From Seonamhaeicola aphaedonensis (GTDB taxonomy: Bacteria; Bacteroidota; Bacteroidia; Flavobacteriales; Flavobacteriaceae), in NCBI RefSeq assembly GCF_003386195.1, contig NZ_QRDX01000001.1:744001-808000 (forward strand): 64,000 nt of DNA, given 5' to 3'. This document shows positions 40,015 to 49,184 of this stretch, in pieces; within the stretch, counting starts at the first letter, position 1; each line of letters opens with the position of its first letter. Both the position numbers and the translations under genes were made by a program. Under the pieces are notes generated by a model. The model saw nothing but the letters and a program-made list of their open reading frames with translations. It searched no databases and had not been told where the DNA came from.

Positions 40015-40092
40015 TTAACATTAAAGTAACCTAAAAATGAAATAGCATTAACAATTTAGTAACATTAAAAACTGGATTATATCGGTTATTTG
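40015..40092 (+). promoter_or_regulatory. putative Pho box and promoter of the 40.1-kb gene
   Basis: Hexamers TTAACA (40015), GTAACC (40026), TTAACA (40048) and GTAACA (40059) lie on an 11-bp grid; the slots at 40037 and 40070 are weak. The -7 element TTTG starts at 40089, exactly 30 bp after the last clear hexamer. The 11-bp direct-repeat layout is that of known PhoB/PhoP sites; the assignment to PhoB is inferred. Confidence 0.65.
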
Positions 40093-40115
40093 CAGAAATA
40101 ATTATCCGTTTTAAA

Positions 40116-40511
40116 ATGAAACAATTAGTAGTATTATTTTTCATCCTTTTTTCAGTAAGCTTGTTTGCCCAAAACACAGGTTTAGTTGTTGGAAAGATTT
40201 TGGATAAAGAAATGGATAATACACCTTTAGCATTTGCGAATGTTTATGTTAAGGGAAGCTCATCAAAAGCTACTTCTGATTTCTCAGGCATGTTTCTTTT
40301 AGAAAACCTACAAGATGGAGAATATACTTTGGTTTGTAATTTTCCTGGGTATGAAAGTAAGGAGATTAATATTACAGTTGATTCTGCTGAACCCACAGAA
40401 ATCAAGTTAGCTTTAGGCGCTTTTACCTTACCATCTCAAATGGAAACGGCATTAGTTGAGAGCCCTTTAGAAAAGAAAACACTTAAGCAGACAGCTACTT
40501 CACTAAATTAA
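40116..40511 (+). CDS. secreted stand-alone carboxypeptidase-regulatory-like domain protein
   Basis: 131 aa: signal peptide to FAQ near residue 19, then one carboxypeptidase-like regulatory (beta-sandwich) domain (about 20-108) and a short polar tail. It is clearly related to the first 110 residues of the TonB receptor that follows (both read MKQ, signal peptide, AQNTG, then PLAFANV, TSDF, GEYTLV), but it stops before any plug or barrel. It is therefore a free copy of the receptor's N-terminal domain, with its own putative Pho-box promoter. Not frame-shifted relative to the receptor: a stop is followed by 258 bp of gap. Role unknown. Confidence 0.75.
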   Translation: MKQLVVLFFILFSVSLFAQNTGLVVGKILDKEMDNTPLAFANVYVKGSSSKATSDFSGMFLLENLQDGEYTLVCNFPGYESKEINITVDSAEPTEIKLALGAFTLPSQMETALVESPLEKKTLKQTATSLN

Positions 40512-40668
40512 CTTTTAGTTTTTTACCTAAATCACACTTTATTTAATTTTTAGGCATTAACTTATCAGAAGGTTTTTACTCTCTGAATGAGCATTGAAAA
40601 TTATTCATTTAAAGAATATTTTCAATGTTAAGAAATTGTTTAGAATAGATTTCGCATACTTCCATTTC

Positions 40669-40746
40669 GTAACATTATCATAACTCTTTTATTACTGTAC
40701 TTTAATCTGTAGATAACACGGTATTTACATAATGTGCATTTCTTTG
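40669..40746 (+). promoter_or_regulatory. putative six-repeat Pho box and promoter of the TonB receptor
   Basis: Six hexamers in perfect 11-bp register: GTAACA (40669), ATAACT (40680), ATTACT (40691), TTAATC (40702), ATAACA (40713), TTTACA (40724). The -7 TTTG begins at 40743, which is 19 bp after the last and 30 bp after the fifth. The best example of the motif in the window. The remaining part of this 258-bp gap shows nothing else. Confidence 0.7.
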
Positions 40747-40769
40747 CAGCGAGAAATTAAAATGAAATA

Positions 40770-43580
40770 ATGAAACAATTTATACTATTATTATTACTCT
40801 TTACAACGGTATTTGGTTATGCGCAAAATACGGGTTCGGTAAAAGGAAAACTTACCGATAAGGAATATAATAATGAACCATTAGCCTTTGCAAACGTATT
40901 GGTAAAAGGAACTACTAAAGGAACCACTTCAGATTTTGATGGATTATATCAGTTATTAGATTTAGAAATAGGTGAGTATACCTTAGTATTTAGTTTTGTA
41001 GGTTACGAAACACAAGAAATTAAAGTTACTATTAGTGCTGGTAAAACAGTTGAACTTAATGTTGAAATGGGAGCTAGTGCTGCAGCTCTAGACGCTGTTA
41101 TACTTGCGCCTGTAACTACAAAACGTGAAAGTGAGACAGCTTTATTGTTGGAACAAAAAAAGGCTGTAGAAATAAAGCAAAGTATTGGAGCTCAAGAATT
41201 ATCTAGAAAAGGGGTTAGTGATGCTGCTGGTGCAGTTGCTAAGATTTCTGGTGTGTCAAAACAAGAAGGGTCAAGTAATGTTTATGTACGTGGACTTGGG
41301 GACAGATACTTAAATACCTCCATGAATGGTTTATCCTTACCATCTAATGATGTAAATAAAAAGAATATAGATTTAAACTTATTTTCATCAGATGTTATTC
41401 AAAATGTATCTATTAGTAAAGCTTACAGTGCCAAATTTTATGGAGATTTTGCTGCTGGAAATGTAGATATTACTTCAAAAGAGCACAAAGGAAGTTTTTT
41501 TGTAGATGTCGTATCGGGTACAGGTTTCAATACCAATGCTATAGGTGAAAATTTTGTACGTAGCGAAGGCACTGGTTACTTTGGGTATTACGGAAGGTAT
41601 GCTCATAACCCATTTGCTGTTGTCTTGTCTCATGGTGTAGATCCAGAAGCTGCAAGTACGCCAATTAATGTTTCCTATGGAGGGTCTTTAGGACACTCAT
41701 TTAAATTTGAAAATGGCTCTAAATTAAGCCTGTTCTTAACTGGTAGTTTTGAAAATGGTTACGAATATAGAAATGGTAAAAACGTAGACTTCACTACTGT
41801 AGAAAAGAAGGCTTTTGAAGTCTCTGAAGAATACGAGTATAGCACCACTACAACAGCTATGGCTAATGTAAACTACAGAATAGATAGTGACAATAGTTTA
41901 ATCTTTAATTCTGTATTCATTAATAGTTCTTCTGATGAAGTTGGTTACTACGGGATAGATGGTAAAGGTAGAAACAGAGATGCTATTTTAGATACAGACC
42001 AGGGTTTTTACCAACAGAACATTCAGTTTGACCAAACAAGAATGTTCGTAAATCAGTTGTTAGGTAAACACAAATCTGGGAAACTAGAATTAGATTGGGG
42101 ATTTGGTTATAATAAGGTGTTCTCTGATCAACCAGATAGAAAACGTTTTAGTGTTGAAAACTATCAATTTGCTTTAGATAATGACGAGACAACTTTCCCT
42201 ACCTTCTATAGCAATGTGGTATTTGATAATCAACGTTATTTTCAAAATATTGAAGATGATGAGTATAACGGGCGTTTAAACTTAGCTTACGAAGTAAAAG
42301 AAAACCTAAAATTCAACATTGGATATAACGGACGTCACAAAACAAGACAGTTTAATAATATAAGATACGGTTATGATATTGTTGATGGTGATTACCAAAT
42401 TACAGATATTAATAATCTTAATGCGGTTTTCAATCTTGAAAATCTTAATATCAATGATGATTCTAACGGTATTTACGAGTTAAAAGTTATTAATCCCTAC
42501 CCAACATTATCAAACACGAACAGACCCGGCTTATTCGAAAATACTTACAGTGGAGAATTAGACGTTCATGCCGGTTATGTTGATGCTGAAATTAAGGCAG
42601 GTGAAAAATGGTTGTTTGTTCCTGGAGTGAGACTAGAGAGATTCGAGCAAAAGATAGATTACGATGTAATCAACCTAGGAAATAATGGCGTAGATTCTAA
42701 ATCATCTGAAGAGACATTTGTCCTACCAAGTTTAAACATTAAATATACTTTAAACGAAGATCAAAACTTACGTTTTTCTGCAAGTAAAACAGTATCTACT
42801 CCAGAGTTTAAGGAAATTGCACCTTTCGTTTACGAAGACGTATCTACAAGAATTGGAGGTAACCCAGATGTGCTTGGATATTCAGATATATTGAATATTG
42901 ATTTTAAATACGAATGGTTCTTTGGTAAAAGTGAAATCTTTTCAGCAGGTGTTTTTACTAAACAGATTGATAACCCAATTAACTTGGTTGTTGTTGGTGA
43001 TGCTACTGGAACACAACGTTATGTAAGAACTGGTAATCAAGCAACTATATATGGCTTTGAGGTAGAGTTAAGAAAAAATCTTTTAGTAGATGAAGATGAA
43101 AATGCCAATTTATCTTTTGGAATTAATGCGACCTATATGAAAACCGAACAAGATTTATATGAAACTATAGATGGTACCTTCGATTTAGCTTTCAATAGAA
43201 CTGAAGATGAATTACAAGGTGCTTCTCCATTCTTATTAAATGCAGACGTTAGTTATTCTCCAACATCGTTCGAAAATTACAAACCCGTAGCCAACTTAGT
43301 GTTCTCTTATTTTTCAGATCGTATTGATGCTCTAGGGTCTGGTGATTTAGGGAATATTATAGAAAAAAGTGTTCCAACTTTAGACTTTATCTGGAAAAAT
43401 ACGATTAAAGAAAATTTCGAAATCAATTTTAGTGCTAAAAACCTACTTAACCCAACGATTCAGTACGTAAGAGAAGATCAAAACTTAGGCGATGTTCTTG
43501 TTGTATCTGCAAATGGAAAAGGTGTTACAGATTACAAAAGAGGTATGAATATAGGACTTCAACTTAAATATAAATTTTAA
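40770..43580 (+). CDS. TonB-dependent receptor with carboxypeptidase-like domain, probably for a phosphate compound
   Basis: Outer-membrane receptor of 936 aa. Signal peptide to about residue 19, carboxypeptidase-regulatory-like domain (about 20-108), plug domain (about 135-240, with YVRGLGDRYLNTSMNGL), then the barrel ending GLQLKYKF. Under a six-repeat putative Pho box and followed by a lipoprotein 41 bp downstream, as in receptor/surface-lipoprotein pairs. Genes for porin and two phosphate carriers lie just beyond. Substrate is therefore likely phosphate or an organophosphate; that is inference from context, since the sequence itself does not name it. Confidence 0.88.
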   Translation: MKQFILLLLLFTTVFGYAQNTGSVKGKLTDKEYNNEPLAFANVLVKGTTKGTTSDFDGLYQLLDLEIGEYTLVFSFVGYETQEIKVTISAGKTVELNVEMGASAAALDAVILAPVTTKRESETALLLEQKKAVEIKQSIGAQELSRKGVSDAAGAVAKISGVSKQEGSSNVYVRGLGDRYLNTSMNGLSLPSNDVNKKNIDLNLFSSDVIQNVSISKAYSAKFYGDFAAGNVDITSKEHKGSFFVDVVSGTGFNTNAIGENFVRSEGTGYFGYYGRYAHNPFAVVLSHGVDPEAASTPINVSYGGSLGHSFKFENGSKLSLFLTGSFENGYEYRNGKNVDFTTVEKKAFEVSEEYEYSTTTTAMANVNYRIDSDNSLIFNSVFINSSSDEVGYYGIDGKGRNRDAILDTDQGFYQQNIQFDQTRMFVNQLLGKHKSGKLELDWGFGYNKVFSDQPDRKRFSVENYQFALDNDETTFPTFYSNVVFDNQRYFQNIEDDEYNGRLNLAYEVKENLKFNIGYNGRHKTRQFNNIRYGYDIVDGDYQITDINNLNAVFNLENLNINDDSNGIYELKVINPYPTLSNTNRPGLFENTYSGELDVHAGYVDAEIKAGEKWLFVPGVRLERFEQKIDYDVINLGNNGVDSKSSEETFVLPSLNIKYTLNEDQNLRFSASKTVSTPEFKEIAPFVYEDVSTRIGGNPDVLGYSDILNIDFKYEWFFGKSEIFSAGVFTKQIDNPINLVVVGDATGTQRYVRTGNQATIYGFEVELRKNLLVDEDENANLSFGINATYMKTEQDLYETIDGTFDLAFNRTEDELQGASPFLLNADVSYSPTSFENYKPVANLVFSYFSDRIDALGSGDLGNIIEKSVPTLDFIWKNTIKENFEINFSAKNLLNPTIQYVREDQNLGDVLVVSANGKGVTDYKRGMNIGLQLKYKF

Positions 43581-43621
43581 AAATAAATCTAATCAAAAAA
43601 TCAAATAAAAAATTAATAACA

Positions 43622-44788
43622 ATGAAAAAACAATTAATCTTAGCCTTAGCATTAGTTTCAATGGTATTCTCTTGTACCACAGACGATACTGCAGATATTA
43701 TAATTAATGACAACAGCATAACTAACAACGGTGGTGGTTCAACAGATCCTAGAACTATTTTCTTGTCAGGTACTTATACTGAAGATTTAACTTTAGATGC
43801 CAATAACACCTATAAATTAAATGGGTCATTAATTATGACCGATGGGACTACATTAACAATTCCTGCAGGTATGACCATTGAGGCTTTAGCTTCTGGAGCC
43901 GATGTTTATATCGCTATTTCACAAGGTGCTAAAATCGTTGCTAATGGTACTGCCGATAATCCAATAGTATTAACTTCTGATGCTTCTAGTCCTGCGGCTG
44001 GAGATTGGGGCGGTTTAATCATTTTAGGTAAGGCACCTATTAACTCTGTTACTGGAACTGCAACTGCAACATCAGAAATTGCAAGTTTACCTTATGGAGG
44101 TCAAACAACAGATGATAACTCTGGATCGTTAAACTACGTAAGAGTTGAATACTCTGGTGGTGCAGCAGATGGTCAATCTGAAAACAACGGATTTTCTTTT
44201 TACGGTGTAGGTAGCGGCACAGTTGTTAACTACATTCAAGCTTATGCTGGTAAAGATGATGGTATTGAGTTTTTTGGAGGAACAGTAAACGCAAGCTATG
44301 TTTCTGTTATCAATGCCGAAGATGATTCTGTAGATTGGACCGAAGGTTATGCAGGTACATTAACTAACGTTTATATTTCTAATAGAACTACAGATGATAA
44401 GGCTATTGAGGCAGATGGTTATAATACAGATTTCAGTAACGCTACTGGTGTATTCTCTAAACCAACTGTAACTAATTTAACCATTGTAGGTGAAGGAACT
44501 GCTGCTGGTCATTCTGAAGCTGTTAGGTTAAGAGCAGGTACTCAAGGCATCTTTACTAATGTACACATTACAGGTTACATTGAAGGATTTGACCTTGATG
44601 ATACTGATACTGGAAATGGAGTAGTAAGTGATGATTTACAAGTAACAGGCGTTACTTTCGTGGATGTTACTACTAAAATGAAAAATGATACATCAGTATC
44701 TTTTACAGATTCAGATTTTTACACTGGAGAAGGTTCGGGTACAGCAACGGATTATGCTACTTGGGGAGCTGGGTGGACAAAACAATAA
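43622..44788 (+). CDS. beta-helix-like lipoprotein partnered with the TonB receptor
   Basis: 388-aa lipoprotein: signal peptide and lipobox VFSC with cysteine near residue 18, a low-complexity linker (TDDTADIIINDNSITNNGGG), then a repetitive, Gly/Asp/Thr-rich body with strands such as GTYTEDLTLDANNTYKLNG, DWGGLIILGKAPIN, LNYVRVEYSGG and DDGIEFFGGT. This looks like a right-handed parallel beta-helix. It probably sits on the cell surface and hands substrate to the receptor encoded 41 bp upstream. No catalytic motif recognised. Confidence 0.75.
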   Translation: MKKQLILALALVSMVFSCTTDDTADIIINDNSITNNGGGSTDPRTIFLSGTYTEDLTLDANNTYKLNGSLIMTDGTTLTIPAGMTIEALASGADVYIAISQGAKIVANGTADNPIVLTSDASSPAAGDWGGLIILGKAPINSVTGTATATSEIASLPYGGQTTDDNSGSLNYVRVEYSGGAADGQSENNGFSFYGVGSGTVVNYIQAYAGKDDGIEFFGGTVNASYVSVINAEDDSVDWTEGYAGTLTNVYISNRTTDDKAIEADGYNTDFSNATGVFSKPTVTNLTIVGEGTAAGHSEAVRLRAGTQGIFTNVHITGYIEGFDLDDTDTGNGVVSDDLQVTGVTFVDVTTKMKNDTSVSFTDSDFYTGEGSGTATDYATWGAGWTKQ

Positions 44789-44808
44789 ACTCTTTCTTTC
44801 AAAACAAA

Positions 44809-44838
44809 AAAGCATTCTCATGTAGAGAATGCTTTTTT
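44809..44838. terminator. bidirectional intrinsic terminator
   Basis: AGCATTCTC (44811-44819) pairs with GAGAATGCT (44825-44833), loop ATGTA, with A-rich sequence on the left and TTTTTT on the right. Ends both the lipoprotein transcript and the convergent MORN gene. Confidence 0.85.
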
Positions 44839-44858
44839 GTTTATTTTAAGACTATTAA

Positions 44859-45206
44859 TTACAAGGCACCATCATTATTTACCTTAGCAACTTTGGTGAT
44901 TTTAGAATCTTCATAATTTACTTCATTTGCTTCACCATTTACCCAAAATGTCCACTTTCCTTGCTTTTTACCATTCTTATAATTTCCAATAGCCACTTTG
45001 TTTCCTTGGGCATCAAAACTAGTCCAAGTACCATGTAATTGCCCTTCTTTATTGAAAGTTCCTTTTTGTTGTATGCTTCCATCAGCATAAAAGTAGGTCG
45101 TCTCAATTAAATCACCTTTTTGCTCATGTTTTACTTTATTTGTGTCTTGAGCAAAGGCTGATATTCCTATAAATAAAACTGCTAGTATAAAAATATATTT
45201 TTTCAT
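44859..45206 (-). CDS. MORN-repeat-variant protein (YwqK-like), secreted
   Basis: 115 aa: signal peptide to FAQ near residue 20, then three MORN-variant repeats (TYFYADGSIQQKGTFNKEG, GTWTSFDAQGNKVAIGNYKN, GKWTFWVNGE). Such proteins are sometimes labelled YwqK-type antitoxins, but no toxin is adjacent. It is on the minus strand inside the phosphate block, and its upstream gap is rich in TTAAC hexamers, so it may be phosphate-regulated. Function unknown. Confidence 0.8.
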   Translation of the reverse strand: MKKYIFILAVLFIGISAFAQDTNKVKHEQKGDLIETTYFYADGSIQQKGTFNKEGQLHGTWTSFDAQGNKVAIGNYKNGKKQGKWTFWVNGEANEVNYEDSKITKVAKVNNDGAL

Positions 45207-45250
45207 TTTGTATGGCTTTTAACTAATTATTAATCGAATTTACAAATTAC

Positions 45251-45289
45251 TTAACTTTTAAACAACACTGACTTAACGTTATCTTAACA
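45251..45289 (+). promoter_or_regulatory. further 11-bp hexamer array
   Basis: TTAACT (45251), ACAACA (45262), TTAACG (45273) and TTAACA (45284) in 11-bp register, in the plus orientation, 45 bp upstream of the MORN gene start. No TTTG is found at the +19 or +30 position (45314 reads CTGT), so whether it serves the plus-strand transcript or the minus-strand MORN gene is unclear. Confidence 0.45.
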
Positions 45290-45359
45290 TTAAAATTTTA
45301 AATAACTAATAATCTGTGTATTATGTATTCAAAAAAAATTAAAACTTAACATTAGAATA

Positions 45360-45415
45360 TTAATGAAAACTTAATATTGAGGTCATATTAAGATTAACTT
45401 GAACCTTGATATTTG
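45360..45415 (+). promoter_or_regulatory. putative promoter of a small RNA with partial Pho box
   Basis: TTTG of TGATATTTGCA begins at 45412. Hexamers on the same grid as the other sites: TTAATG (45360, -52), TTAATA (45371, -41), a poor GTCATA (45382, -30), and TTAACT one base out of place (45394, -18). The 11-mer TGATATTTGCA is the same as at the PiT promoter. Confidence 0.45.
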
Positions 45416-45419
45416 CATT

Positions 45420-45523
45420 TGTCTTAGGACATTTAATTAGTATTTCATATAATTTATTAGTTTTTGTCGACTACATTATTATGATTTCTAATGAGACTGC
45501 CTCGAACAAGGCAGTCTTTTTTT
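45420..45523 (+). ncRNA. candidate phosphate-responsive small RNA
   Basis: About 100 nt between the promoter-like site at 45412-45415 and a strong intrinsic terminator, AGACTGCCT (45494-45502) with AGGCAGTCT (45509-45517) and seven T. No plus-strand gene ends here: the preceding one has its own terminator at 44809-44838. The transcript has no convincing ORF (a 16-codon frame from 45481 reads through the terminator stem). A leader-independent sRNA is the simplest explanation; the exact start is inferred. Confidence 0.5.
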
Positions 45524-45532
45524 GTTCTTAAA

Positions 45533-45577
45533 TTAATCATTTAGAAACATTAAGTTAACATTGATTTTAGTTCTTTA
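45533..45577 (+). promoter_or_regulatory. putative Pho box and promoter of the porin gene
   Basis: TTAATC (45533), GAAACA (45544), TTAACA (45555) at 11-bp steps; the TTTA of TTCTTTACAGCGA begins at 45574, so the hexamers lie 41, 30 and 19 bp upstream as at the TonB receptor. The TCTTT-CAGCGA context is shared with 40741-40752. Confidence 0.65.
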
Positions 45578-45603
45578 CAGCGACAAAAATTAATAAATTT
45601 CTA

Positions 45604-46806
45604 ATGAAACTTAGACTTACCCTTGTGCTTTTAGTAAGCACTTTTATTTCTATTTCTGCTCAAGAAATAAGCGACACCTCTTTTGGAAAAGGTCTTATAA
45701 ATTTCACTGCTAAAGACAGTTCGTTTAGCATAAAATTTGCACCTCGTTTTCAAATGCGATACATTTCATCATGGGATCATAACGGTGACCAATATGGTTC
45801 GCCCGAACATAATTTTATCATAAGACGAGCCCGATTAAAATTTGATGGTTTTGCTTACAGTCCGAAATTAAGGTATAAGATTGAGTTAGGGCTATCTAAC
45901 CGTGACTTGTCTGGTGGAAACCAATTTAACCGAAACACCCCACGTTATATACTTGATGCCGTATTGATGTGGCACTTTGCAAAAAACTGGGAACTTTGGG
46001 CTGGCCAGACTAAATTACCTGGAAATGTAGAGCGCGTAATATCTTCAGGAGACCTGCAACTTGTAGACCGTTCATTACTCAATAGCAGATTCACTTTAGA
46101 CCGTGATATAGGGCTTCAATTACGTCATAAATTTTATTTGGGCAATGATTTTTTAGTTCGTGAAAAATTGGCTCTTTCCCAAGGTGAAGGTAGAAACGTA
46201 ACCGAAGGTAATGAAGGAGGATTACAATATACAGCACGATTAGAATTGTTACCTTTTGGAGCTTTTAAGTCTAAGGGTGATTATAAGGGGTCTGATTTAA
46301 AAAGAGAAGAAAAACCAAAGCTATCTTTAACATTTACGTATAACTTTAACGAAAATGCTGTTAGAGAAAGAGGTTTTGCCGGTGATTATATGATTAGAAC
46401 CGATGGTTCCATTTACGAAACAGATCAAACAACCATATTTATTGATGCCATGTATAAACATAACGGTTTTTCATTTATGGGAGAATACGCAAAACGTACT
46501 GCCGATGATGAAATTGCTACTGAATTAGATGGCATTACACCTACCGGAGATGTAGTTTTAACCGGTAATGCCTTAAACTTACAAGCTGGATATTTATTTG
46601 AAAGTAACTTTGAAATTGCTGGCAGATACACAACTTTAGACTATGAAGCCATTACAAATGCACTTCCTGTAAAACAATATACTTTAGGTTTAAATAAGTT
46701 TATACACGGACACAAGCTAAAAGTGCAAAGTGATATCAGTTACACATCTTTAGATGGAAACGACGATAATATTAGGTTTAGATTAGGGTTTGATTTCCAT
46801 TTCTAA
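45604..46806 (+). CDS. phosphate-selective porin (OprP/OprO-like)
   Basis: 400-aa outer-membrane porin. Signal peptide to ISAQ near residue 19; the early FAPRFQMRYISSWDHNGDQY, FIIRRARLKFDGFAYSP and WAGQTKLPGNVERV segments fit the phosphate-selective porin O/P family; ends in the aromatic FDFHF. It lies under its own putative Pho box and 71 bp before the PiT gene. Family is clear; phosphate selectivity is inferred. Confidence 0.88.
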   Translation: MKLRLTLVLLVSTFISISAQEISDTSFGKGLINFTAKDSSFSIKFAPRFQMRYISSWDHNGDQYGSPEHNFIIRRARLKFDGFAYSPKLRYKIELGLSNRDLSGGNQFNRNTPRYILDAVLMWHFAKNWELWAGQTKLPGNVERVISSGDLQLVDRSLLNSRFTLDRDIGLQLRHKFYLGNDFLVREKLALSQGEGRNVTEGNEGGLQYTARLELLPFGAFKSKGDYKGSDLKREEKPKLSLTFTYNFNENAVRERGFAGDYMIRTDGSIYETDQTTIFIDAMYKHNGFSFMGEYAKRTADDEIATELDGITPTGDVVLTGNALNLQAGYLFESNFEIAGRYTTLDYEAITNALPVKQYTLGLNKFIHGHKLKVQSDISYTSLDGNDDNIRFRLGFDFHF

Positions 46807-46809
46807 AAA

Positions 46810-46854
46810 ATAACGATAACATAACAATATAATCAAGAATAGTCATGATATTTG
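46810..46854 (+). promoter_or_regulatory. putative Pho box and promoter of the PiT gene
   Basis: ATAACG (46810) and ATAACA (46821) lie 41 and 30 bp upstream of the TTTG at 46851 (in TGATATTTGCAG). The -19 slot is poor. The ATG at 46845 lies within this promoter region, so it is unlikely to be the start of the PiT protein; the next ATG is 46878. Confidence 0.6.
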
Positions 46855-46877: not shown

Positions 46878-49184
46878 ATGGATAATATTTATTTGTACAT
46901 GTTGATTGCCTTAACAATTTTGGCAGTTGCAGATATTGTTGTTGGCGTTAGTAATGATGCCATTAACTTCTTAAACTCAGCTATTGGCTCCAAAGCTCTC
47001 TCATTAAGAACTATTATGATTGTTGCTAGTTTGGGTATTTTTATTGGAGCTGTATATTCTAGTGGACTTATGGAAGTAGCCAGAAAAGGTATTTTTGTAC
47101 CTGCCCAGTTTAGTTTCCATGAGATTATGCTCATTTTTATGACCGTAATGATAACAGATATTCTACTGCTAGACTTTTTCAATACCTTGGGGTTACCAAC
47201 ATCTACTACAGTTTCTATTGTATTTAACTTGCTGGGAGCTGCTGTAATAATGGCTGTTATCAAAGTAGGTGCATCAGACACTCAAACCTTCGCAGATTTA
47301 GGTTCTTATATAAATACTAAAAAAGCTATTGAAATTATAAGTGGGATCTTGCTTTCTGTTGTTATAGCCTTTAGTATTGGAGCGATTGTTCAATGGTTTT
47401 CCCGTTTAATTTTTACCTTTTATTACACTGAAAAAATTAAAAGTTTTGGAGCTATTTTTGGTGGTTTAGCCCTTACAGCAATACTTTATTTCATTTTCAT
47501 GAAAGGACTTAAAGGAACTCCTTATTACAATGAAATAAAAGATGTAATTGAAGGCAATGAGTTATACATTATCCTTGGTGGGTTTGTTGTTTTTACTTTA
47601 ATATCTTTTGCATTTCAACGTATAACCAAGAAAAGTATCCTTCTAATAGTTATTGCCGTTGGTACTTTTGGTTTAGCATTAGCTTTCTCTGGTAATGACT
47701 TAGTCAACTTTATTGGTGTTCCCATGGCTGCTTATCATTCTTATGAAGCATGGTCTGTATCAGGTATAGATGCAACTGAATTTACTATGGGGGTTCTGAA
47801 TAAAAAAATGCCAGCAGAACCATTCTTATTGTTCATAGCCGGAAGTATTATGGTGATTACCTTATGGTTCTCCAAAAAAGCTAAAACTGTGGCAGAAACA
47901 GAAATTAGTTTATCAAGGCAAAGTGAAACTCATGAAAAGTTCAAGCCGAATTTACTTTCAAGAAGTATTGTTAAAGGAACTACGGCTCTATCAAATGCAT
48001 TGGCATCAATTATACCCAAATCTACTCAAGAAAAAGTAAACGCAAGTTTCCAAAAACCAGATTCTACCTTAATCACAAAAGATCAAAGTGTTAATGCTCC
48101 AGCATTTGATATGATTAGGGCTTCTGTAAACTTAATGGTAGCGGGAGTTTTAATTTCTATTGCAACCACCATGAAGTTACCACTATCAACTACTTATGTA
48201 ACGTTTATGGTAGCTATGGGAACCTCTTTAGCTGATAGAGCTTGGGGAGCAGAAAGTGCTGTTTACAGGGTTGCTGGTGTTCTTAACGTTATAGGTGGAT
48301 GGTTTTTAACCGCACTTGGAGCTTTTGCCGGAGCAGGAATAGTTGTATTCTTAATCAATTGGCATCCAGCTGTAATGACTCCCATATTGTTATTACTAAC
48401 AGTTCTTTTATTGGTAAGAAATTATCTTTCCCATAAAAGAAAATCTTCTCTTTCAAAAAGTGAGGACAGCCTTAAAAGTGCAGAAAGCAGCTCTGTTCAG
48501 GGTGTTATTCATGAAAGTGCAGCTAATATAGCCAATGTTGTTAAACGTGGAAACAAGATTTACTCCAATGCCATTAATGGTTTGGCAAAACAAGATTTAG
48601 CATCTCTTAAAAAGAACCAAAAACAGATAACAAAATTATCTTTGGAAGTTGATGAACTAAGAGACAATATTTTTTACTTTATTAAGAATTTAGATGAATC
48701 TAGTGTTGGTGCAAGTAATTTTTATATTAATATCTTAGGATACTTGCAAGACATGACACAATCTTTAGAGTATATCTCAAAGGCGAGTCATAAACACGTA
48801 AATAATAATCATAAAAAACTTAAGTTTAATCAGATTAAAGAATTGAAAGAAGTAGACGAAGCCATTGAACATTTATTCAGTGATACGAAAGCTGCTTTTG
48901 ATTCTCGTTCTTTTGAACACATAGGTAATATTATTAGCAGGGAAGAAAATGTGGTTTCTGTGGTTTCAGATAAAATTCAAAAACAGGTAGAGCGTACACG
49001 TAAAGAAGAATCTAGTCCTAAAAACACAACTCTTTATTTTGGACTACTTTTAGAAACAAAAGATTTATTGAAAGCTACCATGAATCTTTTAGAAGAATAT
49101 CACAATGCTCATGATGCTTCTGTTATTCCAGCAAAAATATCAGATGATTCTATTATTTCTGCAGAATTATCGGAAGAAGAATAA
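46878..49184 (+). CDS. PiT-family inorganic phosphate transporter with PhoU-like C-terminal domain
   Basis: Inner-membrane phosphate carrier. From the ATG at 46878, 768 aa; an upstream in-frame ATG at 46845 is set aside because it overlaps the promoter. PiT signature GVSNDAINFLNSAIGS at 23-38 and its second copy FSGNDLVNFIGVPMAAY near 271-287 mark the two halves, with about ten to twelve helices up to residue 525. Residues about 540-755 are charged and helical, resembling a PhoU-like regulator fused to the transporter. Own putative Pho box. A convergent Na/Pi symporter gene follows. Confidence 0.93.
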   Translation: MDNIYLYMLIALTILAVADIVVGVSNDAINFLNSAIGSKALSLRTIMIVASLGIFIGAVYSSGLMEVARKGIFVPAQFSFHEIMLIFMTVMITDILLLDFFNTLGLPTSTTVSIVFNLLGAAVIMAVIKVGASDTQTFADLGSYINTKKAIEIISGILLSVVIAFSIGAIVQWFSRLIFTFYYTEKIKSFGAIFGGLALTAILYFIFMKGLKGTPYYNEIKDVIEGNELYIILGGFVVFTLISFAFQRITKKSILLIVIAVGTFGLALAFSGNDLVNFIGVPMAAYHSYEAWSVSGIDATEFTMGVLNKKMPAEPFLLFIAGSIMVITLWFSKKAKTVAETEISLSRQSETHEKFKPNLLSRSIVKGTTALSNALASIIPKSTQEKVNASFQKPDSTLITKDQSVNAPAFDMIRASVNLMVAGVLISIATTMKLPLSTTYVTFMVAMGTSLADRAWGAESAVYRVAGVLNVIGGWFLTALGAFAGAGIVVFLINWHPAVMTPILLLLTVLLLVRNYLSHKRKSSLSKSEDSLKSAESSSVQGVIHESAANIANVVKRGNKIYSNAINGLAKQDLASLKKNQKQITKLSLEVDELRDNIFYFIKNLDESSVGASNFYINILGYLQDMTQSLEYISKASHKHVNNNHKKLKFNQIKELKEVDEAIEHLFSDTKAAFDSRSFEHIGNIISREENVVSVVSDKIQKQVERTRKEESSPKNTTLYFGLLLETKDLLKATMNLLEEYHNAHDASVIPAKISDDSIISAELSEEE

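Follow-up and report, generated by a model that had tools for sequence, protein, structure and literature searches.

A candidate PhoB tandem operator of Flavobacteriaceae and a predicted porin-small RNA feed-forward module

We analysed a stretch of 64,000 nucleotides (hereafter the window) from the 3.5-Mb genome of Seonamhaeicola aphaedonensis (contig NZ_QRDX01000001.1, positions 744,001 to 808,000, forward strand), whose phosphate-selective porin has its closest named relatives in Flavobacteriaceae. Four promoters of a phosphate-uptake block in the window carry hexamers repeated every 11 bp in register with the -7 element (TTTG or TTTA), and a fifth promoter of the block, which the first-pass annotation did not contain, precedes a predicted small RNA encoded directly upstream of the porin gene. 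We propose that the repeats form a tandem operator of the response regulator PhoB in Flavobacteriaceae, and that the porin and the small RNA would make up a feed-forward module under this regulator; we put the probability of this whole explanation at about 0.8. The arrays and their phase, the predicted promoter and terminator of the RNA, and the apparently co-evolving complementarity between RNA and porin leader are demonstrated by comparison with relatives.

The four arrays known from the first-pass annotation are the following:
40015..40092, plus strand: array of the small gene at 40.1 kb, with TTAACA at 40015, GTAACC at 40026, a degenerate slot at 40037, TTAACA at 40048, GTAACA at 40059, and TTTG at 40089.
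40669..40746, plus strand: six-unit array of the TonB receptor, with units at 40669, 40680, 40691, 40702, 40713 and 40724, and TTTG at 40743.
45533..45577, plus strand: porin array, with TTAATC at 45533, GAAACA at 45544, TTAACA at 45555, and TTTA at 45574.
46810..46854, plus strand: array of the PiT transporter, with ATAACG at 46810, ATAACA at 46821, and TTTG at 46851.

Every hexamer coordinate and every distance to TTTG/TTTA (40089, 40743, 45574, 46851) in the first-pass annotation was correct. Its letter class, [ATG]TAAC[ATC], fitted nine of the 15 named hexamers and failed for the other six, being narrower than the actual sites: all four hexamers of the 40.1-kb gene fall within it, as do three of the six before the receptor (outside are 40691 ATTACT, 40702 TTAATC and 40724 TTTACA), one of the three before the porin (outside are 45533 TTAATC and 45544 GAAACA) and one of the two before PiT (outside is 46810 ATAACG). 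With the strict hexamer, a spacing of 11 was unremarkable, occurring four times in the whole window versus one to five times at spacings of 7 to 15. Four exact TAAC units were found 18 times in 149 genomes versus three times in the control, a count that is uninformative, many of the hits being simple repeats. We then scored 3,056 TTTG/TTTA sites on both strands of the window with a unit matrix built from 30 receptor promoters, the window's own included. The four promoters ranked 1, 2, 3 and 12, the array of the 40.1-kb gene being second, and the promoter of the small RNA ranked sixth.

We anchored the receptor upstream regions of 30 loci, which represent 30 genera, with an iterative matrix (L052, L044 and L043 fit least well); they aligned without gaps and showed six slots at -74, -63, -52, -41, -30 and -19 from TTTG. 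Slot -30 read TAAC in 30 of 30 genera, and slot -52 was the weakest. Column autocorrelation peaked at lags 11 (0.16), 22 (0.12) and 33 (0.18); lag 38 gave 0.09, and every other lag between 5 and 37 stayed at or below 0.03. Out of sample, the unit matrix gave period 11 as the best of seven (versus 8-10 and 12-14) in all 18 further, more distant receptors. Porin arrays could be recognised in each of the ten printed loci, which were the closest ones (L011 was the weakest), and in a one-per-genus set 55 of 60 porin promoters scored best at period 11; a first porin set had given only 11 of 22 loci, because the longest open reading frame (ORF) was often PiT or the porin was a distant paralogue. Units preceded PiT at -41 and -30 from TTTG in eight of nine anchored loci (the ninth, L003, has the unit pair but was left unanchored by the script); the porin and PiT anchors were chosen by register, and since anchoring relied in part on the register, the evidence from fixed position is weaker than the period test. 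Slots -74, -63, -41 and -30 of the 40.1-kb gene recurred in L133, L140 and L144, with slot -41 as a weak TTAAA or TTAAT in relatives, and L141 keeps the proximal two; by eye, ORFs like this small gene stand in the same place in all four loci. The PhoX family PF05787 was also tried as a test class and rejected as a poor one: it lumps different enzymes together, and period 11 came out best in nine of 23 loci, seven of the 30 fetched loci having been left out with an ORF that starts at or near the locus end.

These arrays thus have 11-bp direct repeats of at least two units, lie in phosphate-gene promoters at several loci, and keep a fixed place upstream of the core promoter, their slots spanning -74 to -19 from TTTG. 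The first-pass annotation was to fall if the grid were not enriched before phosphate genes in relatives, and we found that it is enriched there. Comparative analysis confirmed the predicted 11-bp hexamer grid as a real feature, which becomes visible once relatives supply the true unit.

We next scanned 60 genomes, 19 of them training donors, with R1, a gapless profile of 48 columns from -41 made from 61 promoters (L146, L148 and L052 were dropped for poor anchoring; L004, nearly a copy of the window's genus, was also excluded). R1 matched at E<=0.1 in 54 of the 60 genomes. The first-pass annotation had expected such a matrix to find phosphate genes in related genomes. Among the 41 held-out genomes, 14 had their top match given as a locus (E 7e-8 to 1.7e-5), and all 14 of these matches lay before one of three kinds of gene: four before receptors, six before lipoproteins and four before porins. 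Lipoprotein promoters were outside the R1 training set, yet account for six of these top matches, and the lipoprotein homologues (31-37% identical) in six held-out genera each have an array of their own. A metallophosphoesterase gene (L175, G000:C2 at about 220.7 kb, minus strand) carries the full 74/63/52/41/30/19 grid with weak middle units; we labelled it PlcP-like, and it is probably under the same switch.

The genes served also fit phosphate uptake, as had been claimed: Pfam gives a phosphate porin and PiT, and the receptor and lipoprotein have phosphate-repressed counterparts in Flavobacterium johnsoniae. Table 1 of PMC8115612 gives +8.0 and +9.9 log2 under phosphate depletion for the receptor and lipoprotein beside phoBR; these counterparts, including that of the lipoprotein (Fjoh_0546), were assigned by gene order, not by sequence. 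The grid is very likely a Pho operator of marine flavobacteria, with PhoB very likely its binder, and the Pho-box interpretation of the first-pass annotation is supported to that extent.

In many relatives a second array lies about 250-310 bp upstream of the porin array, and this led us to a conserved element before the porin. Its order is array, TTTG, small 5' hairpin, ATTAGTATTTCATATAATCTATTAGTTTTTGTCGACT, terminator, and then directly the porin's own array. In the window, the predicted parts are:
45251..45289, plus strand: distal array, with units at 45251, 45273 and 45284 (unit scores 6.5, 7.0 and 7.8).
45360..45415, plus strand: small RNA promoter, with TTAATG at 45360 (-52), TTAATA at 45371 (-41), GTCATA at 45382 (-30), and TTTG at 45412.
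45420..45524, plus strand: small RNA of about 105 nt, with a 5' hairpin, a central hairpin displaying UUUUGUC, and an intrinsic terminator (fold z -5.2).
45493..45523, plus strand: intrinsic terminator of the small RNA, from the sequence.

In relatives, promoter slots -52, -41 and -30 read TTAAT, TTAAT and xTTAC. For the proximal region, period 11 was best in 71 of 83 loci; in the one-per-genus set this held for 51 of 60, versus two of 51 control ORF stretches. With the distal array counted in, the first figure rose to 75 of the 83, and in 41 of the 83 loci the best triplet of that array lies 138-141 bp before the TTTG of the RNA. The terminator shows two-sided compensatory changes at seven of eight predicted pairs. 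The central hairpin was misaligned by MAFFT, with RNAalifold returning only four inner pairs and the terminator, and it rests on single-sequence folds, 46 of 62 of which display the seed as a six-base loop. By prediction, the small RNA has its own promoter and terminator, and we infer that it is made.

The RNA is widespread among relatives. With E<=1e-6 as the limit, profile R2 detected it in 65 of 149 genera, of which 11 had supplied rows of the model; at E<=0.01 the count was 111 of 149, including weak matches that we took for noise. The Rfam scan returned five matches with E 3.6 to 9.7, none over the gathering threshold. Among 96 porin loci (79 of 80 named ones and 17 further), the core was present in 83, and by profile also in L287 and L268. 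A one-per-genus look at 70 loci found the core in 62, in 51 of which tblastn placed a porin on the same strand in tandem, with three more loci carrying Porin_O_P by Pfam. We also noted some unusual loci. In L338 (G128), PiT directly follows the small RNA and the porin is gone from its usual place; L376 (G096) has two facing R2 matches with no porin seen beside them; and L382 (G098) has one R2 match and, further on, a complement of the core. In L272 and L273, from marine metagenome-assembled genomes (one titled Formosa), the RNA looks decayed (20 and 33 bits, with the terminator left), and the porin leader GACAAAAACTAAT is kept.

The candidate pairing partners in the window are:
45456..45468, plus strand: seed ATTAGTTTTTGTC, complementary to the predicted 5' end of the porin mRNA.
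45582..45603, plus strand: porin mRNA leader with predicted +1 at 45582, in which GACAAAAATTAATAAATT pairs with the small RNA.

The predicted start lies at TTTG+8, following the placing of TAnnTTTG at -12 to -5 in F. psychrophilum (in the available part of PMC9723704). From there the porin message would begin with GACAAAAACTAAT in most relatives and with GACAAAAATTAAT in the window, the complement of the seed ATTAGTTTTTGTC. The predicted duplex of the window has 18 contiguous pairs, wobble included, and runs from +1 to about +18 of the 22-nt leader. Within the genome, the RNA pairs with the porin leader at -24.1 kcal/mol, versus -8.2 to -11.9 with the leaders of the receptor, the small gene, PiT and the PlcP-like gene, and none of 500 shuffled porin leaders pairs as well as the real one. 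A search of the genome for second targets, using a leader 14-mer with one mismatch, gave eight matches versus eight in the reversed control; among them was the complement of the RNA itself, and the porin leader alone sits at a predicted mRNA start.

Matched partners also fit each other better than exchanged ones. In 82 usable pairs (77 unique; L274 was dropped as too short and L301 as having no usable leader), which partly overlap the genus set, matched duplexes averaged -15.7 versus -14.1 (standard deviation 0.16) for permuted ones. In 54 genera, the values were -20.0 versus -17.2 (standard deviation 0.3); the genus set lost eight of 70 loci without the core, seven of 62 without a leader by pattern and, from the 55 left, L359 as the second copy of its genome. 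No permutation among 10,000 was as good in either set, a count that is no probability, since the sequences are related and hence not independent. Fourteen genera have a seed unlike ATTAGTTTTTGTC. Their own pairs averaged -22.3; crossing them with consensus partners gave -15.0 and -15.9, and shuffling within the 14 gave -15.5 (standard deviation 1.0; again 0 of 10,000 as good). The leader had changed too in 11 of the 14, as in CTTTA with TAAAG (L366), CTGTA with TACAG (L384) and CAAAG with CTTTG (L387), and the own pair beat both mean crosses in 13. RNA and leader also remain together in L323, L330 and L388, whose porin is a distant Porin_O_P. Together, these results provide covariation support for the claim that the small RNA and the porin leader have co-evolved to pair.

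Several of our results weigh against the explanation as a whole. Three strict TAAC units at 11 bp, with one mismatch allowed, were not enriched in the whole genome (35 versus 55 in the reversed control). The other 27 of the 41 held-out genomes stand outside the R1 gene-class count, and in a hand-picked set of 23 R1 places in relatives, three of which repeat the 14 top matches, 14 of the remaining 20 precede genes of the receptor, lipoprotein or porin kinds and six precede a different gene or no gene. R1 is also unspecific in its own genome: there were 29 matches at E<=10, only the three training sites fell below 0.01, 12 of the 26 non-training matches lie inside ORFs, and the 40.1-kb gene scored E 1.6. 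The best PhoB candidate is below both equivalog cut-offs (218.7 of 296.2 and 209.1 of 270). As to the RNA, 16 of 62 folds lack the six-base-loop seed, mostly with the seed paired to the 5' region. Six of 62 small RNA loci have no porin alongside (L338, L371, L376, L378, L382 and L385, with about 650 nt behind the RNA covered for five), two are ambiguous (L359, L360), and L271 has the leader with no small RNA nearby. In the 82-pair set the contiguous run is only 9-11 in ten pairs, with a one-base shift in eight; the seven loci with no leader by pattern stood outside the pairing test; L357, L364 and L367 still have CTAAT as leader despite a changed seed; L367 pairs no better with its own partner than with the crosses; and the relatedness of the sequences takes the force of a probability from the permutation counts.

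The mechanism that we propose runs as follows. Phosphorylated PhoB would bind head to tail on 11-bp units with a consensus of about DTAAC[ACT]-N5 and variants TTTAC, GAAAC and TTAAT. Each promoter would hold two to six units, the last of them 19-30 bp before the -7 box, where it would replace a weak -33 contact. At low phosphate, PhoB would activate the small CarbopepD protein, the receptor-lipoprotein pair, the porin, PiT and probably the PlcP-like phosphoesterase, and also the small RNA of about 105 nt. This RNA would show UUUUGUC in a hairpin loop and pair from nucleotide 1 of the porin mRNA over about 13-18 nt of the 22-nt leader. A seed in a loop is a classical arrangement for fast pairing. 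The likeliest effect would be a block of translation start on the leader that caps porin synthesis, making an incoherent feed-forward loop with one regulator. We take translational repression as the likeliest because flavobacteria have no Shine-Dalgarno sequences, as stated in the available part of PMC9723704, and the ribosome must load on the covered leader. Repression is thus the sign that we consider on balance probable. It seems likely to us that the whole is an old PhoB-driven porin-small RNA module of Flavobacteriaceae, with tandem promoters of the same design and a dedicated loop-seed RNA, co-evolved across dozens of genera and kept even with a distant porin homologue.

The opposite sign, a coherent loop in which the small RNA covers the 5' end of the porin mRNA and thereby protects or activates that message, is an unlikely outcome with some points in its favour: pairing from nucleotide +1 would mask the end from 5'-end-dependent decay, and the AUG of the window, at +23, is outside the contiguous duplex. 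The duplex nevertheless spans most of a very short leader on which the ribosome must land. Moreover, OprP beside phoBR in F. johnsoniae was not induced at low phosphate (-1.3, not significant), while the receptor and two lipoproteins of the cluster rose by 7.6-9.9 log2 (table 1 of PMC8115612), a pattern that fits repression if this strain carries the RNA.

We think it less probable still that the porin message includes the small RNA region as a leader acting in cis, with read-through from 45420 and a hairpin of seed and leader that tunes termination or translation. The same-strand tandem in 51 of 62 loci, plus the three Porin_O_P loci, would suit this arrangement, but the two are set apart by a T-run terminator and by a conserved Pho promoter of the porin's own, and the distance between the core and the TTTG of the porin ranges from 99 to 204 nt across relatives.

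The preferred reading, with a trans-acting RNA under PhoB, also has to be weighed against a different identity of the binder: another OmpR-type response regulator, or some other tandem-binding protein, could recognise the grid and govern the block by chance. Direct repeats of 11 bp are common to the OmpR/PhoB class, the assignment of PhoB as binder is indirect, and the candidate falls short of the equivalog cut-offs. Even so, only two matches in the genome span the PhoB model, at 218 versus 146 bits; the better one is PhoB, with TIGR02154 as its best model, and the other is far weaker. A four-unit array lies about 70 bp from this best phoB, and in five relatives, by eye, an arrayed receptor promoter faces a PhoB-like gene; the three of these that were scored all had PhoB as best model. 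Arrays also precede phosphate genes, and the unit resembles the cyanobacterial SphR box CTTAACCT (in the available part of PMC1906773). Another binder therefore has a small chance in our judgement, a little below that of the cis leader. At L151 (2179-2217; G000:C10 at about 76.18 kb), a four-unit array stands between phoB on the minus strand and a small protein sorted by the type IX secretion system (T9SS); next comes another T9SS-sorted protein, which has an LTD domain. The closest TTTG there misses the usual register by about 2 bp. Least credible of all is that the complementarity is an inverted repeat at the DNA level (a protein site or a gene-conversion product). Its arms are indeed mostly only about 110-130 bp apart, but the seed lies in a hairpin loop in the 46 folds given above, and the second arm begins where the mRNA is predicted to start. 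In 11 genera, moreover, both arms have been altered, to different sequences, a pattern incompatible with a fixed protein site.

Judged by layout, the predicted operator belongs to the Pho boxes; its unit comes close to the SphR box and is unlike that of E. coli or Streptomyces. As described in the available part of PMC4415409, the Pho boxes of PhoB/PhoP in E. coli, Bacillus and Streptomyces likewise consist of 11-bp direct repeats before phosphate genes, in varying number and order; their units are CTGTCAT in E. coli and GTTCACC in Streptomyces, unlike about TTAACAT here. Arrays of the window type also differ from these boxes in having up to six units phased to the Bacteroidota TTTG box. The SphR box shares three or more tandem repeats and a TTAACC core (PMC1906773, same part), whereas it belongs to another phylum, and the arrays here keep their slots at fixed distances from the -7 box and include the hexamer variants TTTAC, GAAAC and TTAAT. 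The Pho regulon and PUS clusters of F. johnsoniae likewise have a TonB receptor and a lipoprotein by phoBR that are strongly phosphate-repressed, and the main text of that paper, as available, does not contain 'promoter', 'motif', 'sRNA' or 'small RNA' (PMC8115612). For Bacteroides fragilis, the available part of PMC3547664 describes a gel shift of PhoB on the pstC promoter, with one porin O gene induced and another lowered at low phosphate; unlike here, the phosphate genes are different, and that part gives no binding consensus. Pho boxes have been predicted at plcP clusters of marine isolates, with no sequence stated in the accessible part of PMC4796936. No Bacteroidota Pho-box consensus was among the matches listed in our open-access literature search, nor was a matching small RNA, and no such RNA is in the available parts of PMC7366714, PMC9723704 and PMC5069720.

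The predicted RNA also invites comparison with enterobacterial systems. The small RNAs MicF and MicC pair with porin mRNA leaders; MicF adjoins a porin gene and works with the OmpR circuit. A small RNA acting on a porin leader is common to both cases. Unlike MicF/MicC, the RNA proposed here has PhoB-type operators and a loop-displayed seed, and its target is the leader of the adjacent porin from nucleotide +1. To our knowledge, Hfq is absent in Bacteroidota. Against the Rfam model of MicC, our RNA scored 17.2 bits (E 5.2, threshold 90), which is no sign of homology.

The order of genes in the block is dGTPase (minus strand), small CarbopepD protein, TonB receptor, lipoprotein, MORN-repeat protein (minus), porin O/P, PiT, and Na/Pi cotransporter (minus). 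The genes served by the arrays are:
40116..40511, plus strand: small CarboxypepD_reg-like secreted protein resembling the receptor N-terminus (Pfam PF13715, 4e-17).
40770..43580, plus strand: TonB-dependent receptor (Pfam PF00593/PF07715/PF13715).
43622..44788, plus strand: lipoprotein in FII position, a label from gene order alone; no match in Pfam or NCBIfam.
45604..46806, plus strand: phosphate-selective porin O/P (PF07396, 4.9e-11).
46878..49184, plus strand: PiT phosphate transporter (PF01384, 3.3e-28).

The PiT start codon is probably at 46878 (MDNIY), because the first ATG of the ORF (46845) precedes the -7 box. Upstream of the receptor array, toward the dGTPase side, we saw a minus-strand pair, TAAACA-N5-TTAACA, at 40626-40642, with a similar pair in L027, L029 and L031 by eye; it may put the dGTPase gene in the Pho regulon.

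The grid, if read as we propose, yields a testable Pho-box consensus for Bacteroidota and would make phosphate-stress genes of marine flavobacteria predictable from sequence. Through the grid before the PlcP-like gene, lipid remodelling would come under this switch too. The small RNA, conserved and with a target supported by covariation, makes RNA control of outer-membrane nutrient uptake in Bacteroidota testable. We know of few small RNA circuits in this phylum, and the porin-small RNA module, if true, would be a phosphate feed-forward loop within it.

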